The position numbers were made by a program, and so were the translations under genes. This document shows positions 39,690 to 46,140 of a stretch of DNA of 64,000 bases, piece after piece (within the stretch, counting starts at the first letter, position 1; each line of letters opens with the position of its first letter). Origin of the DNA: Bacteroidota bacterium (GTDB taxonomy: Bacteria; Bacteroidota; Bacteroidia; Flavobacteriales_D; Crocinitomicaceae); assembly GCA_016866255.1 (NCBI GenBank), contig VGMY01000005.1:1-64000 (forward strand), read 5' to 3'. The notes beneath the pieces were generated by a model that saw nothing but the letters and a program-made list of their open reading frames with translations, had not been told where the DNA came from and made no database searches.

Positions 39690-40268
39690 ATGACCACTCC
39701 TATCGTCTTGGCTGTAATGTTATCTGGAAAAGGCAGTAATGCAAAAAACCTAATTCTGCGATCAATAGAAGAATCTGACCTTTTTATTGGGCTGATAGTC
39801 TCGACCCGGCCCAACGAAGAATTGGAACACTTTTGTCGCGATCGGAAAATCCCATTCAAATGTATCAGTCCCTGGGATTCTTTCCTTGCACTGCAATTTT
39901 TACAAGATCATGCAGTACATTACGTCATTCTTGCCGGATTCTTGAAAAAAATAACTCCCGAAATATTGCAGGCCTTTCCCAAAAGAATTCTCAACCTTCA
40001 TCCCTCCTTACTGCCAAAATACGGCGGAAAAGGCATGTTTGGAATCCATGTTCACCGCAAAGTATTGGAGAACCGTGAATCCGAAAGCGGTATTACCATA
40101 CATCTTGTTAACGAAGCCTACGACGAAGGAAAAATATTGGCTCAATTTTCGTGTTTTGTCTCCCCCGAAGACAGCGCAGAATCTTTGGAGAAAAAAATAC
40201 AACAATTAGAAATGGCGCACTTTCCCGAAGTTGTTTTTCGCTATTGCAAGGCTTCGTTTAAATGTTGA
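39690..40268 (+). CDS. purN: Phosphoribosylglycinamide formyltransferase
   Basis: PurN transfers a formyl group from 10-formyl-THF to GAR in purine synthesis. The 192-residue protein has the N-terminal MLSGKGSNAKNL phosphate loop. The catalytic region RILNLHPSLLPKYGGKGMFG (Asn and His) is near residues 91-110, and the Asp lies in HLVNEAYDEG. The length is normal. Its 3' end overlaps the convergent kynU gene by 28 bp. Confidence 0.94.
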   Translation: MTTPIVLAVMLSGKGSNAKNLILRSIEESDLFIGLIVSTRPNEELEHFCRDRKIPFKCISPWDSFLALQFLQDHAVHYVILAGFLKKITPEILQAFPKRILNLHPSLLPKYGGKGMFGIHVHRKVLENRESESGITIHLVNEAYDEGKILAQFSCFVSPEDSAESLEKKIQQLEMAHFPEVVFRYCKASFKC

Positions 40269-41515
40269 CCAAACCAAAACACTTCTTCAAAACGGTTATA
40301 CAACGGTACCGGTGCAACCCGTATAACGTTGGGTTCCCTCCAATCAGCAATAACCCCCAATGACGTTAAGCGCTTAAAACAATCCTCACCGCGGTCTAAC
40401 AACAAAATGGACAATTGAGAGCCCCGTTTTTTCGGGGATTTCGGAGTAATGATTTTAAGCCCAGCACCGTGAGGGTTGTTGTGCGAAACGTCGTTAATTA
40501 CATATTCCAAATAGGCCGTTAATAAATCCCTCTTATGGGCAATTCTATCCATCCCGGCATCGTCGAAAATTTCCAAAGATGCAAGATGAGCAGCCATTCC
40601 TAAAACAGGGGCATTGCTTAACTGCCAGCCCTCTGCTCCGGGTAAAGGATCAAAGCCCGGTTCCATGTGAAAGCGGGTTTCTTTGTTATGCCCCCACCAA
40701 CCTGCTAAACGAAATAAGTCTTTACGGTGTGCGTGACGCTCGTGCACAAAAAAACCCGAAACCCCTCCCGGAGAAGAATTCAAATATTTATATCCACACC
40801 AAGCAGCAAAATCCGGACCCCATTCATGGAGTGTTAAGGTAACATTTCCCGCGGCATGCGCCAAATCAAACCCCACTATGGCGCCTACTTCGTGGCCTTT
40901 TAGGGTGATTTGTTGCAAATCAAAATACTGGCCCGTATAATAATTGACTCCGCCCCACATAATCATCGCCAAATCATCGCCCAATTCCTCGATTTTAGCG
41001 TAGATATCTTCCTCACAAATGAGGTGTTCTCCTTGTCTTGGTCCGACATAAACTAAATCCGATAACGGCAATGAATGCATCGCAAGCTGACTTTCGAGCG
41101 CATATTGGTCGCTTGGAAATGTTTTTGCTTCGCACAAGATCTTCGTGCGCTTTCCTTGAGGCCGATAAAAGGAACTCATCAACAAGTGTAAATTGGTGGT
41201 TAAACTGTGGGTCGTGCATACCTCAATAGGTTTTGCTCCGACCAAACGCGCTGTTTTAACAGTAAGCGCTTCGTGGTAGGAATACCAAGGCCTTTTCGCT
41301 TGAAAATGCCCCTCCACTCCAAGGCGTGCCCAATCCTCTAGTTCTTCTAAAATATATTTACGGGCGCTTTTGGGCTGAAGCCCTAACGAATTTCCGGTGA
41401 AGTATACGGAATTTTCTTTGCCATACGTTGGGATTAAAAATGCATCTCTATAAGCCTTTAATGGATCCTTAGCATCTAATTGTCTTGCAAATTGTAGGCT
41501 GTTTTCAAAGTTCAT
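40241..41515 (-). CDS. kynU: Kynureninase
   Basis: A PLP enzyme cleaving kynurenine (to anthranilate) or 3-hydroxykynurenine (to 3-hydroxyanthranilate) plus alanine. The 424-residue protein has the PLP lysine at K243 (WCGYKYLNSSPGG). The substrate-binding YFTGNSLGLQP and the FDLAHAAGN Asp motif are also present. No other kynurenine-pathway gene adjoins it, so whether it serves tryptophan breakdown or NAD synthesis cannot be judged here. Confidence 0.94.
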   Translation of the reverse strand: MNFENSLQFARQLDAKDPLKAYRDAFLIPTYGKENSVYFTGNSLGLQPKSARKYILEELEDWARLGVEGHFQAKRPWYSYHEALTVKTARLVGAKPIEVCTTHSLTTNLHLLMSSFYRPQGKRTKILCEAKTFPSDQYALESQLAMHSLPLSDLVYVGPRQGEHLICEEDIYAKIEELGDDLAMIMWGGVNYYTGQYFDLQQITLKGHEVGAIVGFDLAHAAGNVTLTLHEWGPDFAAWCGYKYLNSSPGGVSGFFVHERHAHRKDLFRLAGWWGHNKETRFHMEPGFDPLPGAEGWQLSNAPVLGMAAHLASLEIFDDAGMDRIAHKRDLLTAYLEYVINDVSHNNPHGAGLKIITPKSPKKRGSQLSILLLDRGEDCFKRLTSLGVIADWREPNVIRVAPVPLYNRFEEVFWFGQHLNEALQ

Positions 41516-41556: not shown

Positions 41557-42867
41557 ATGGGGCAATTAGGCCGATCTCAATCTGCGCGATATTATAAAGA
41601 AGCCTTAGGTCTTTTTCCAGGAGGTGTAAATTCCCCGGTTAGGGCCTTTAAAAGCGTAGGAGGCACCCCCTTATTTTTTAACCGCGGAAAAGGTTCGCGG
41701 GTTTGGGACGAAGATGGGAATGAGTTTCTTGATTTTTGCACTTCATGGGGACCATTAATTCACGGGCACGCTCATCCCTACGTTGAAGAAAAAATCATCA
41801 AAACCTTAAAAAACGGTTCGAGTTTCGGTGCTCCTACAAGGCTTGAAAATGAGCTCGCCATCTTGCTAAAAACCCACCTTTACCACGTAGAAAAATTCCG
41901 TTTTGTAAGTTCAGGAACGGAGGCGGTCATGTCTGCGTTGCGCTTAGCTCGCGGCTACACGAACAAACCCAAAATATTAAAATTTGAAGGGTGCTATCAC
42001 GGACATGTTGATTCGCTTCTGGTAAAGGCTGGGAGCGGATTGGTTACCTTGGGTACTTCATCCAGCGCCGGGGTTCCTAACTCCATTGTCCAAGAAACGC
42101 TTGTGCTTCCCTTAAATGACGCTGCTCTTTTAGAACAAGCCATCCAAACACATGCCCACGAACTGGCTGCAGTTATCATCGAACCCGTTCCTGCCAACAA
42201 CGGATTGTTATTGCAAGACCTTTCGTTTCTGCACCTGCTAAGAGGACTCTGTTGGAAACACAACGTTTTATTAATTTTCGACGAAGTCATTTCCGGGTTT
42301 CGCGTTGCTTTTGGCGGGGCTGTAGAACTCTATGGAATTGAACCGGATATCGTTACATATGGAAAAATCATGGGTGGCGGGCTTCCTGTGGGGGCCTATG
42401 GCGCTTCTCATAACATAATGTCCGCTGTTTCCCCAGACGGTCCTGTTTATCAAGCGGGAACGCTGTCCGGAAACCCCGTGGCCATGGCGGCGGGAATTGC
42501 GCAGTTAGAATTGTGTTTAGCCCCCGATTTCTACCAAGAAATGGAGGCAAAAACCAGGGGTTTTGTCGAACGAATTAATGCCTATGCCAAAGTGAAAGGA
42601 TACCCTTTTGAACTCGTTTCATTAGCCTCCGTCTTTTGGCTTTCCTTTCATGGAAAAAAATCCATCCATCGAGCTGATGAAATTGACCCCGATATGAGTG
42701 CTTTTAACCGACTGCACGATTACCTGCTCAATCATGGAATTTACTTGGGCCCAAGCGGATACGAAGTGGGATTCGTCTCTTCTGCGCATTCCGTTGATGA
42801 GCTAACCCATGCGGCACAAGTTTTTTGTCGTGGACTAGACCAACTTTATGCAGGAGCAGAGCAATAA
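41557..42867 (+). CDS. hemL: Glutamate-1-semialdehyde 2,1-aminomutase
   Basis: HemL makes 5-aminolevulinate for tetrapyrrole synthesis. The 436-residue PLP enzyme has PGGVNSPVRAF near the N-terminus, SSGTEAVMSALRLAR (about residues 118-132) and the PLP lysine K270 in TYGKIMGGGLP. Length and motifs are canonical. It heads a five-gene operon. Its last 20 bp overlap the following SDR gene, so heme supply and carotenoid tailoring appear to be transcribed together. Confidence 0.96.
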   Translation: MGQLGRSQSARYYKEALGLFPGGVNSPVRAFKSVGGTPLFFNRGKGSRVWDEDGNEFLDFCTSWGPLIHGHAHPYVEEKIIKTLKNGSSFGAPTRLENELAILLKTHLYHVEKFRFVSSGTEAVMSALRLARGYTNKPKILKFEGCYHGHVDSLLVKAGSGLVTLGTSSSAGVPNSIVQETLVLPLNDAALLEQAIQTHAHELAAVIIEPVPANNGLLLQDLSFLHLLRGLCWKHNVLLIFDEVISGFRVAFGGAVELYGIEPDIVTYGKIMGGGLPVGAYGASHNIMSAVSPDGPVYQAGTLSGNPVAMAAGIAQLELCLAPDFYQEMEAKTRGFVERINAYAKVKGYPFELVSLASVFWLSFHGKKSIHRADEIDPDMSAFNRLHDYLLNHGIYLGPSGYEVGFVSSAHSVDELTHAAQVFCRGLDQLYAGAEQ

Positions 42868-43867
42868 GCCTGTAGTTCTTGGAGGAACGGGGCTTGTGGG
42901 AAGTCATTTGCTGTATTTACTCGCCCAACGAGGTCCTGTAACGGCAACCGCAAGAAGTTTAAAAAACCATGCCTCCGTTGAAAAAGTTTTTCAATATTAC
43001 AATGCTGAAAGCGGCGCCCTTTGGTACCGAAACATCGAATGGGTAAATTTGGATATTTTAGATGTTGACGGAATCCAAGAAGTGGTTGCCAATGCTCAAG
43101 AGGTATACCACTGCGCGGCCCTTGTTTCCTTCCACCGCATTGATTTTTACCGTTGCATTGAATTCAACCGACAGGGAACGGCCAATGTGGTGAATGCATG
43201 CCTTCAGGTGCCTGGTCTTAAATTGTGTTATGTGAGCTCTACCGCCGCCTTAGGAAAGAACCCGGGAGGAATGATCGACGAAACCTGCCTTTGGAAAGCG
43301 ACCGATAAAAACAGCGGTTATTCGGTCTCTAAATTTGGGGCAGAAAAGGAGGTTTGGCGAGGCATTGAAGAGGGTTTGAACGCAGTAATTATCAACCCTT
43401 GTACCGTGATAGGTGCTGGAAAATGGGAAGAAGGATCTATGGAACTGTTCGGCGTTGCTCAAAAGGGCATGCCCTTTTACCCCAGCGGTGCCAACGCCAT
43501 TGTGGATGCGCGAGATGTTGCTGCTTCCATGTTTTTTTTAATGAAAAACCCTTACAGCGCTGAAAAATTCCTTTGTACGGGAAGTAATCAGGATTTTAAA
43601 ACATTGTTTACCCTCATCAGCCAAAAAATGGGAAAACGGGGCCCAAAAATATATGTCCCCTATTGGATTGCCTTGCCGATTTCCTACGCAATGGAAACCT
43701 GGTCATTGCTTCGAAAAAAACGACAAGGTATGACCATCGAATCAACGCGAGCGGCCTATTCCACAAGGATTTATAATCCAGCAAAATTAAAAAACCTGGT
43801 TCCTCAACCATTCTGCACCTTGGAAGAATCCATTGATAATGCCCTAAAAGGAAAGATTAAGCCATGA
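42848..43867 (+). CDS. NAD(P)-dependent SDR (epimerase/dehydratase-like)
   Basis: A 339-residue extended short-chain dehydrogenase. The nucleotide loop is LGGTGLVGSHLLYL (about residues 12-25). The catalytic Ser is in CYVSSTAALG and the YxxxK pair in YSVSKFGAEKE (near 158-162). It resembles dihydroflavonol reductase or hopanoid-associated SDRs more than GalE. Its place between hemL and the carotenoid genes suggests a role in carotenoid or lipid modification, but no substrate can be named. It overlaps hemL by 20 bp and the cruF-like gene by 4 bp. Confidence 0.85.
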   Translation: MQEQSNKPVVLGGTGLVGSHLLYLLAQRGPVTATARSLKNHASVEKVFQYYNAESGALWYRNIEWVNLDILDVDGIQEVVANAQEVYHCAALVSFHRIDFYRCIEFNRQGTANVVNACLQVPGLKLCYVSSTAALGKNPGGMIDETCLWKATDKNSGYSVSKFGAEKEVWRGIEEGLNAVIINPCTVIGAGKWEEGSMELFGVAQKGMPFYPSGANAIVDARDVAASMFFLMKNPYSAEKFLCTGSNQDFKTLFTLISQKMGKRGPKIYVPYWIALPISYAMETWSLLRKKRQGMTIESTRAAYSTRIYNPAKLKNLVPQPFCTLEESIDNALKGKIKP

Positions 43868-44481
43868 AAGAACGAACCGGAATTATTCTATTATTAATCC
43901 TCTATGGGGTAGGAATTACCTCGCTGATGGTTAACGACTTGCGGAGTGTCGTGCTTCCTTTAAGCCCCTACACCTTGTTGTTATCGTTTTTAATTTTAAT
44001 GACCTCCTTCCGATGGAAAAGTTCTTTGGTGTGGGTTGCTGTTTTAGTCTTTCTTGTAGGATTTACTGCAGAATGGCTTGGCGTTCACAAAGGCTGGTTG
44101 TTTGGTTCGTATTCTTATGGCTCCAATTTAGGTCCCAAAATAGCACGTGTTCCCATCATTATTGGGGTAAATTGGGCCATGCTTACGGTGGTAACCGGAG
44201 CTGTTGCGGCGGCATTTATAAAGCGTCCATGGGTCATTGTGGTGGTGGCCGCATTGCTTATGACAGGGCTTGATTATTTCATGGAACCGGTTGCCGTAGA
44301 AAACGAATATTGGTTTTGGAGGGGAGAAAAAATACCCTTGTACAATTACATTTGTTGGTTTTTGGTAGCCTTGTTGACACAGGGAATTAACGTAGGAATA
44401 TCCAAAACAAAAGCGAACAATACTACGTGGGTTTTGTTTTTTAGCTTGATTTTGTTTTTTGTAATTCAATTCTACTTTTAA
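43864..44481 (+). CDS. Carotenoid biosynthesis membrane protein (CruF/DUF422 family)
   Basis: A 205-residue integral membrane protein with about six helices, matching the carotenoid 1,2-hydratase-like CruF family. Its recognisable features are AEWLGVHKGWLFGSYSYG (about residues 75-92), PIIIGVNWAML and LDYFMEPVAVENEYWFW near residue 140. CruF members add water to the end of acyclic carotenoids such as gamma-carotene derivatives. It overlaps the SDR gene by 4 bp and is one base before the hydroxylase gene. Confidence 0.82.
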   Translation: MKERTGIILLLILYGVGITSLMVNDLRSVVLPLSPYTLLLSFLILMTSFRWKSSLVWVAVLVFLVGFTAEWLGVHKGWLFGSYSYGSNLGPKIARVPIIIGVNWAMLTVVTGAVAAAFIKRPWVIVVVAALLMTGLDYFMEPVAVENEYWFWRGEKIPLYNYICWFLVALLTQGINVGISKTKANNTTWVLFFSLILFFVIQFYF

Positions 44482-44482
44482 T

Positions 44483-44962
44483 ATGACTTGGTGGGGTCCT
44501 TTACTTTTAATTGCAACCTTTTTCGGAATGGAATTCATGGCGTGGTTTACCCATAAATTTATTATGCACGGTTTTATGTGGTATTTCCATCGAGACCACC
44601 ATCAGGTTGAGGCCGGTTTTTTTGAAAAAAACGATGTTTTTTTTCTGATTTATGCTATACCATCCTGGTTGGGAATTATGTTGGGGTTGATGTATGAATT
44701 TTATCCAACCGTATGGATGGGATTCGGTATTGCTTTGTACGGTATTGCCTATTTCCTCATCCATGACGTTTACATTCATCGCCGGTATAAATTTTTGCGC
44801 GATGTAGACCATCCCTATTTCTATGCTATTCGTAAAGCGCACAAGGTGCACCATAAGAACCAAGACAAAGAAGAAGGCGCTTGTTTCGGAATGTTGCTGG
44901 TTCCTCCTCAATTCTACCGCGACGCTAAAAAAGCATGGTTAGCGCAAAAAACCAAAACATGA
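44483..44962 (+). CDS. crtZ: Beta-carotene hydroxylase-like (CrtZ family)
   Basis: A 159-residue membrane di-iron hydroxylase of the fatty-acid hydroxylase/CrtZ family. All histidine boxes are present: HKFIMH (HX4H), HRDHH (HX2HH), HDVYIH and HKVHHK (HX2HH). CrtZ adds 3-hydroxyl groups to beta-rings. Its context between a CruF-like protein and a lycopene cyclase supports a carotenoid substrate. Its stop overlaps the cyclase start by 4 bp. Confidence 0.88.
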   Translation: MTWWGPLLLIATFFGMEFMAWFTHKFIMHGFMWYFHRDHHQVEAGFFEKNDVFFLIYAIPSWLGIMLGLMYEFYPTVWMGFGIALYGIAYFLIHDVYIHRRYKFLRDVDHPYFYAIRKAHKVHHKNQDKEEGACFGMLLVPPQFYRDAKKAWLAQKTKT

Positions 44963-45648
44963 GTTACTACGGGTACATTCTCCTATTTTCATTTTTGGGT
45001 CCTCTGTGCTTAAGTTTCGATAAAAAAGTAGCCTATTACAAACATGTTCCGCGGCTCATTCTACCAACAATACTGGTTTCTGGATTATTTATTGTCTGGG
45101 ATCAATGGTTCACTGAACGTGGAATTTGGGGTTTTAATCCAAAATATGTCGGGGGCCTTTACCTTGGTCGTCTTCCCTTGGAGGAAGTGTTGTTTTTTGT
45201 TGTGGTCCCCTACAATTGTTTATTCATCTATGAAGTTGTTGCCGCGTATTTTAAACCGGTAAATTCTCCTCCATTGAATAAAGGTTTCCTGCTTATGTTT
45301 ATTTTTTTTGGCGCAATCCTTTTATACCAGACTCCCGGAGGATGGTATCCCAGTACGGCTGTAACCTTGGCGCTGGTAACCAGCTTTGCGCTGCTCATTC
45401 GCCCCCCTTCTTGGCTAAGTCAATATATTATTGCCTACCTAATTTGTTTAATCCCATTTTTGGTGGTAAATGGGCTTCTAACCGGCGCTGCTACCAACAA
45501 TCCGGTGGTATGGTACAATGAATCGGAATTTTCAGGTTGGCGGATTTTAACCATTCCCGTGGAGGACCTCTATTATAATTTCGACCTGTTCATAGGGTTT
45601 ACCTTATTGTTTGAACTTCAAAAAAACCGTTTATCGTTTCGAAAGTAA
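44959..45648 (+). CDS. Lycopene cyclase, fused CrtYcd type
   Basis: A 229-residue membrane protein made of two tandem lycopene-cyclase domains, each with a PLEE/PVED-type motif: RLPLEEVLFFVVVPYN (first) and IPVEDLYYNFDLFIGF (second). This type forms beta-rings on lycopene. The start at 44959 (MSYYGYILLFSF) overlaps the crtZ stop as ATGA. An in-frame Met at 44935 would add eight polar residues. Its 3' end overlaps the convergent rfaE2-like gene by 18 bp. Confidence 0.9.
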   Translation: MSYYGYILLFSFLGPLCLSFDKKVAYYKHVPRLILPTILVSGLFIVWDQWFTERGIWGFNPKYVGGLYLGRLPLEEVLFFVVVPYNCLFIYEVVAAYFKPVNSPPLNKGFLLMFIFFGAILLYQTPGGWYPSTAVTLALVTSFALLIRPPSWLSQYIIAYLICLIPFLVVNGLLTGAATNNPVVWYNESEFSGWRILTIPVEDLYYNFDLFIGFTLLFELQKNRLSFRK

Positions 45649-46140
45649 GGACGTCGTCGAATAGCCCTCAACCAAGGGCAATGTTTGCACCTTTCCACCC
45701 CAAGCGCTTGCTTCGTGCTTGCCGACAATGTAGCGTTTATCCTTTCTGTCCAACACGTTTGCGTCGTAATCGGCACCTTTAACAATATAATCCGGTTTGA
45801 TGACCTCTATGAGTTGAAGGGGAGTGGGTTCGGAAAAAAGAACTACATGATCTACAAAGCCCAAAGACGCAATAACCAAAAGCCGCGCCATTTCTTCATT
45901 AACAGGACGATTGCCTTCTTTTCCCAGAGCGCGTACTGAAACATCATCATTGATGGCAACAAAAAGTTTGTTACCAAGGCTTGCCGCTTGAGCCAAATAC
46001 GTTACATGACCAAGGTGCAAAAGGTCGAAACACCCATTTGTAAAGACCACCTTTTCGCAAACCAGGCGATACGCCTCTGCGCGCTGAATTGCTTGGGACA
46101 CATTAATGATTTTCGAATGTACGTGTTCAAATCGTTTCAC
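45631..46140 (-). CDS. rfaE2: Heptose-1-phosphate adenylyltransferase-like protein
   Basis: A 169-residue nucleotidyltransferase of the RfaE C-terminal type, which activates heptose-1-phosphate to ADP-heptose for lipopolysaccharide. It contains the [13 protein letters not shown] motif (about residues 33-45), the GGxxDxLHxGH signature of cytidylyltransferase-like enzymes. The kinase domain (RfaE1) is not attached, as is usual in Bacteroidota. Its start overlaps the panD stop by 4 bp. Confidence 0.88.

Follow-up and report, generated by a model that had tools for sequence, protein, structure and literature searches.

The window analyzed here, 64,000 nucleotides (nt) of a Bacteroidota genome (G000:C5:1-64000, from assembly G000 of 2.34 Mb in 50 contigs, ~94% complete), carries at 41557-45648 five plus-strand open reading frames (ORFs) in the order hemL, a gene for a short-chain dehydrogenase/reductase (SDR), cruF, crtZ and crtYcd (Table 1). 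The first-pass annotation described this region as a carotenoid-tailoring operon headed by hemL, and the block is real: the five genes are co-directional, with overlaps of 20 nt (hemL/SDR), 4 nt (SDR/cruF) and 28 nt (crtZ/crtYcd) and a single 1-nt gap (cruF/crtZ). They likely form one transcription unit, co-transcription being what we infer from this layout. Very probably, a saproxanthin-type tailoring trio stands in this unit behind two core genes, hemL and the SDR gene, and acts with distant crtB, crtI and crtD. We observed directly which families the genes belong to, how they are ordered and conserved, and what they occur with. The comparisons use a family sample of 60 genomes, 48 with CruF and 12 without, which provides 47 other family CruF loci besides the window. 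Here, L-numbers denote loci and G-numbers genomes, G000 being that of the window and C1, C5, C9 and C15 its contigs.

CruF matches PF04240 with 90 bits (cut-off 25) and is present in 48/60 family genomes, and CrtYcd matches both PF18916 (105.3 bits, cut-off 27) and TIGR03462 (96.1, cut-off 39.4), in two stretches each. The CrtZ-like protein is assigned by its conserved histidines, their spacing and the position of its gene. In an alignment of 40 rows, comprising the window protein and 39 CrtZ-labelled ORFs from CruF loci, 10 of 11 histidines are conserved in at least 95% of rows, and their spacing matches what we take to be that of beta-carotene hydroxylases. Among the other family CruF loci, crtZ lies close to cruF in 35/47, crtYcd in 37/47 and all three genes are together in 34/47; the gene order is therefore not due to chance. 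A stand-alone CrtY of the PF05834 type adjoins cruF in L064, L070, L071, L075, L076 and L094. The first five of these loci, at which no CrtZ or CrtYcd was seen, suggest a cyclase swap, and L094 is an additional CruF locus in a genome that has CrtZ-CrtYcd as well.

The absence of crtB and crtI from the locus, remarked on in the first-pass annotation, extends to the whole of the window's contig (C5), on which neither has a match. The search elsewhere in the genome that it had proposed located a crtI-crtB pair on C9 and crtD on C1. The one PF00494 match of the genome is crtB (142.6 bits), CrtI lies above the NF058655 cut-off (723.2 vs 640), and crtD is a second CrtI-type gene (G000:C1:184603-186078; NF042421 546.1 vs a cut-off of 500). 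CrtD is found in 46/48 family genomes with CruF vs 2/12 without (3/12 if a fragment in G016 is counted), these being raw counts over related genomes. A CrtI-type gene adjoins cruF in 18/47 other family CruF loci, and L077 holds the entire string ECF-crtI-crtB-idi-crtD-cruF-crtZ-crtYcd. The crtI-crtB region on C9 (L002:6961-12757) also contains a PTPS-like gene and one for an ECF sigma factor; two further genes there, idi and a cryptochrome/photolyase-like gene, were recognized by eye. The PTPS-like, sigma factor and photolyase-like genes could be a sign that light or stress controls the region.

These families, and the presence of crtB, crtI and crtD elsewhere in the genome, bear out the original suggestion that CruF, a cyclase and CrtZ fit a monocyclic hydroxylated carotenoid. 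CrtB and CrtI (G000:C9) would supply lycopene, which CruF would hydrate at C-1' of one end and CrtD (G000:C1) would desaturate at C-3',4'; CrtYcd, the single-chain form of which has been termed a monocyclase (PMC2889829), would close a beta-ring at the opposite end, and CrtZ would add the 3-hydroxyl to yield saproxanthin or a close relative. Myxol, the other product named in the first-pass annotation, would in addition call for the 2'-hydroxylase CrtA-OH. HemL and the SDR would be neighbors by genome history, probably sharing only a promoter with the trio. We infer the enzyme activities, the order of steps and the product from the gene set, which predicts saproxanthin by the logic of the Nonlabens spongiae enzymes (PMC11855829; this and the other accounts cited by PMC accession were available in part, and what is taken from them is limited to those parts). 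In E. coli that makes lycopene, the main product of the N. spongiae cyclase by itself was beta-carotene, and that of the cyclase combined with CruF was 1'-hydroxy-gamma-carotene; CrtD led to 1'-hydroxytorulene, and CrtZ turned deoxymyxol into myxol (PMC11855829). The first of these results, together with a report that CrtZ of strain P99-3 hydroxylates bicyclic carotenoids (PMC11855829), would favor an operon that makes beta,beta-carotenoids (zeaxanthin) and in which CruF is marginal. Such an outcome appears unlikely, as the addition of CruF in the Nonlabens system led mainly to a monocyclic product, CruF and CrtD co-occur across the family, and the beta-carotene needed for retinal has a candidate gene of its own in the CrtY-Blh fusion described below.

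The saproxanthin-type pathway is of a known kind in a new genome, with a gene arrangement at the level of the genus. If the CrtZ-like protein is taken as a CrtZ, the set of CrtB, CrtI, CruF, CrtD and CrtZ is common to the N. spongiae system (PMC11855829) and the window genome, and the Nonlabens gene order, crtI-crtB-crtZ-CrtI-type-cruF, is found in the named metagenome-assembled genome (MAG) loci L043 and L044. Unlike in Nonlabens, the pathway of the window genome is spread over three contigs, crtYcd lies by cruF, and the trio stands behind hemL and the SDR gene. The system of PMC10784355 likewise has CruF with CrtYcd, CrtZ and CrtD; unlike that system, as far as its account was available, the window genome has no CrtW-like gene that we could see. 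The proposed search for crtW gave a qualified answer, in that the genome's two PF00487 proteins, of 371 and 360 amino acids, are not of the size of a CrtW 4-ketolase and by eye resemble a lipid desaturase and an AlkB-like hydroxylase. With such a ketolase, flexixanthin would be the expected product.

Several observations weigh against this reading. CruF stays below its NCBIfam equivalog cut-offs (for TIGR03460, 71.6 vs 154.7), and the CrtZ-like protein has no Pfam or NCBIfam match up to E = 1. CrtB falls short of every NCBIfam cut-off, with HpnD as its best-scoring model in that set, and its name therefore leans on the adjoining crtI. NF058655 bears the name 'bifunctional phytoene desaturase/3,4-desaturase', so that CrtI may take part in the step given to CrtD. 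The N. spongiae cyclase was compared with P. ananatis CrtY (26% identity; PMC11855829) and so is not clearly a CrtYcd-type enzyme. Since the genome is ~94% complete, an unseen ketolase is not proof of none. Lastly, the SDR gene still lies by cruF in five loci of the genus that have no hemL upstream (L135, L137-L140).

The SDR, for which the first-pass annotation could assign no step, finds no support as a pigment enzyme in its distribution, which does not follow that of the pathway. It was matched (E <= 1e-20) in 58/60 family genomes, including 51/51 good genomes, 47/48 with CruF and 11/12 without; it is therefore a core gene, most likely encoding a core oxidoreductase of the family. A single match was found in 56 genomes, with a second, weak one (26% identity) in G020 and G055. 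The protein scores 87.3 bits against PF01370, its GxxGxxG motif and S131, Y158 and K162 are invariant across 10 aligned rows, and the solved structures nearest to it in sequence are those of a putative oxidoreductase (3wj7), of cinnamoyl-CoA reductases and of dihydroflavonol reductases. Against TIGR03466, the model for the hopanoid-associated epimerase HpnA, it reached 126.1 bits, below the cut-off of 367.65. A role as sphingolipid reductase was considered and, on a comparison with published descriptions, is not supported: BT_0972 is described with a GxxxGxG motif (PMC9278070), where the SDR carries GxxGxxG, and CerR is described as NDUFA9-like (PMC11087976), where the SDR has the solved relatives just named.

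It is conceivable that the SDR is a true carotenoid enzyme recruited to the operon, for example one oxidizing the 3-hydroxyl or another end-group alcohol. Its gene precedes and adjoins cruF in 10/48 family CruF genomes (the window included) from three genera, never shares a locus with a CrtI-type gene beside cruF (0/47), and keeps its place in the five genus loci lacking hemL. Its retention in nearly all genomes without CruF makes recruitment improbable, as does its setting away from cruF, where 9/16 chosen loci have a methylguanine-methyltransferase-like gene upstream. PF01035 was found in one such gene, and one of the nine loci has a small ORF between it and the SDR gene.

HemL is well above the NF000818 cut-off (554.4 bits vs 398) and narrowly under that of the equivalog TIGR00713 (513.7 vs 527.3), and has one match in its own genome (E <= 1e-60). 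By the same threshold it is present in 55/60 family genomes, 46/48 with CruF and 9/12 without. Within the family sample, hemL lies by cruF only in genus g1 (the window and 3/47 other loci, four members in all). A scan of 86 genomes of the genus found CruF in 77/86, HemL in 82/86 and both in 75, and in 64 of those 75 hemL is located 1.0-1.6 kb upstream of cruF on the same strand, amounting to 64/64 genomes that have both genes on one contig. One linked genome, G095, has a second CruF without hemL. Among the 11 unlinked genomes, five show upstream DNA without hemL (L135, L137, L138, L139 and L140), the loci of G061, G073 and G113 run there into a contig end or come close to one, and G065, G119 and G125 were not read. 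A lack of conserved linkage, which had been named as grounds for rejecting the operon, is thus not seen within the genus but does hold for hemL outside it.

A metabolic meaning for the hemL coupling, which the first-pass annotation had found unexpected, is likewise not supported. In the hemL-linked genus loci that were read, kynU is conserved upstream, as are purN, fabF and rnc where the contig reaches (L039 and L143 show kynU alone of the four), and ordinary synteny therefore suffices to explain the linkage. A diverged HemL, with 45-47% identity to that of the window, occurs in 12 genus genomes, 10 of which have CruF, and in nine its gene occupies the corresponding position ahead of cruF (Table 1), reflecting either replacement in place or fast divergence; the one copy tested exceeds the TIGR00713 cut-off (601.7 vs 527.3). 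The presence of this diverged HemL in the same position, the same-strand linkage in all genus genomes with both genes on one contig, and the somewhat higher share of HemL in family genomes with CruF could alternatively reflect co-regulation of heme/tetrapyrrole supply and pigment, for instance against porphyrin photodamage. We consider such a functional link doubtful, given its confinement to g1 in the family sample, the conservation of genes further upstream and the five genus loci in which no hemL stands before the SDR gene. Thus, both surprises of the locus, hemL and the SDR, are largely explained without a pigment role, the lack of a pathway part for either being our interpretation of these distributions.

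The closest of seven named CruF loci, L038 from a Flavobacteriales MAG (86% identity), shares all five genes and both flanking genes with the window. The kynureninase gene, separated from hemL by 41 nt, also adjoins hemL in the genus loci examined, and the hldE-type gene adjoins crtYcd in L141 as well as L038. By-eye reading of the sequence and L038 indicate that crtYcd probably starts at 44959, with an ATG overlapping the crtZ stop, rather than at 44935. A small protein of ~107-120 amino acids is conserved between hemL and the SDR gene in some relatives and is absent from the window; its ORF has no match to the methyltransferase-like query, and the L127 copy is without a Pfam match above cut-off. 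An Rfam scan of the window returned tRNA only. A two-box pattern, which we take to be that of Bacteroidota promoters, gave 6 matches in the window vs 4.1 expected, none of them before hemL, and a single TAnnTTTG-like box within the kynU-hemL gap is too weak to be of use.

Table 1. Coordinates of the five-gene block, its flanks and related features (window positions unless a locus is given)
Feature	Position	Strand	Basis
hemL, glutamate-1-semialdehyde 2,1-aminomutase (heme/tetrapyrrole C5 pathway)	41557..42867	+	NF000818, Aminotran_3/HemL
extended SDR (DFR/3beta-HSD-like oxidoreductase)	42848..43867	+	PF01370 (Epimerase)
cruF	43864..44481	+	PF04240 (Caroten_synth)
crtZ-like beta-ring 3-hydroxylase	44483..44962	+	conserved His pattern, position
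crtYcd, fused lycopene beta-cyclase	44935..45648	+	PF18916, TIGR03462 (Lycopene_cyc, CarR_dom)
kynureninase, divergent flank outside pathway	40241..41515	-	TIGR01814 430.3 bits
hldE domain-II-like adenylyltransferase, convergent flank	45631..46140	-	TIGR02199 157.5 bits (cut-off 181.5)
diverged HemL at same spot	L127:6680-7939; also G064, G066, G078, G083, G094, G107, G108, G109		
small ORF between hemL and SDR	L127:8040-8366, L128:5963-6286, L039:6601-6942, L142:7971-8315		

Contig C9 additionally encodes a 657-amino-acid CrtY-Blh fusion which, by domain matches, joins a lycopene cyclase (PF05834, residues 16-370, 154.3 bits) to a retinal-forming dioxygenase (Blh, residues 421-648, 104.6 bits). 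The Blh half passes TIGR03753, and the CrtY half is below the NCBIfam cyclase cut-offs. Matches to both halves occur in 9/60 family genomes, eight of them among the 13 genomes with a rhodopsin, leaving G002, G023, G031, G046 and G052 as rhodopsin genomes without a full match; among these nine, the copy in G057 is truncated by the end of its contig and that in G021 lacks its start. The fusion adjoins the rhodopsin gene in G012, G015, G017, G040 and G057, and the two are on different contigs in G000, G022 and G053. In a tree, the cyclase domains of eight fusions cluster together to the exclusion of six stand-alone CrtY proteins (support 100/99, with one long branch flagged). A bacterial CrtY-Blh fusion is not named in the portions of the literature searched (PMC10016063, PMC10675870, PMC2889829, PMC9418006, PMC13043013), a partial search that is no proof of novelty. 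The nearest published cases, within the same limits, are a protein of Thecamonas and the order of genes in Roseobacter. The protein of Thecamonas, a protist, likewise unites a lycopene cyclase with Blh on a single chain, but has four activities and a CrtYc/d cyclase, whereas the bacterial fusion has a PF05834-type CrtY and Blh only.

Among solved chains, 9jov/9jou are closest to the proteorhodopsin of the window genome (L101:10010-10756; G000:C15). Carotenoids reportedly bind rhodopsins, in work attributed to Fujiwara et al. in 2025. By eye, the proteorhodopsin carries a glycine at the position described for other rhodopsins as permitting a carotenoid to bind (PMC12308411, PMC13043013, partial texts). 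It is possible, although we would not put it higher than a tentative suggestion, that two cyclases split the lycopene pool, CrtYcd with CruF, CrtD and CrtZ leading to the monocyclic hydroxylated pigment, and CrtY-Blh to retinal for the proteorhodopsin, to which the pigment would bind as a helper chromophore.

The hemL and SDR genes illustrate that conserved adjacency alone is not evidence of a shared pathway, and that presence and absence across a family can separate the two. For the window genome, the pigment pathway is now complete on paper, and the findings point to a division between the supply of pigment and that of retinal, open to experiment, in Bacteroidota that carry a proteorhodopsin.

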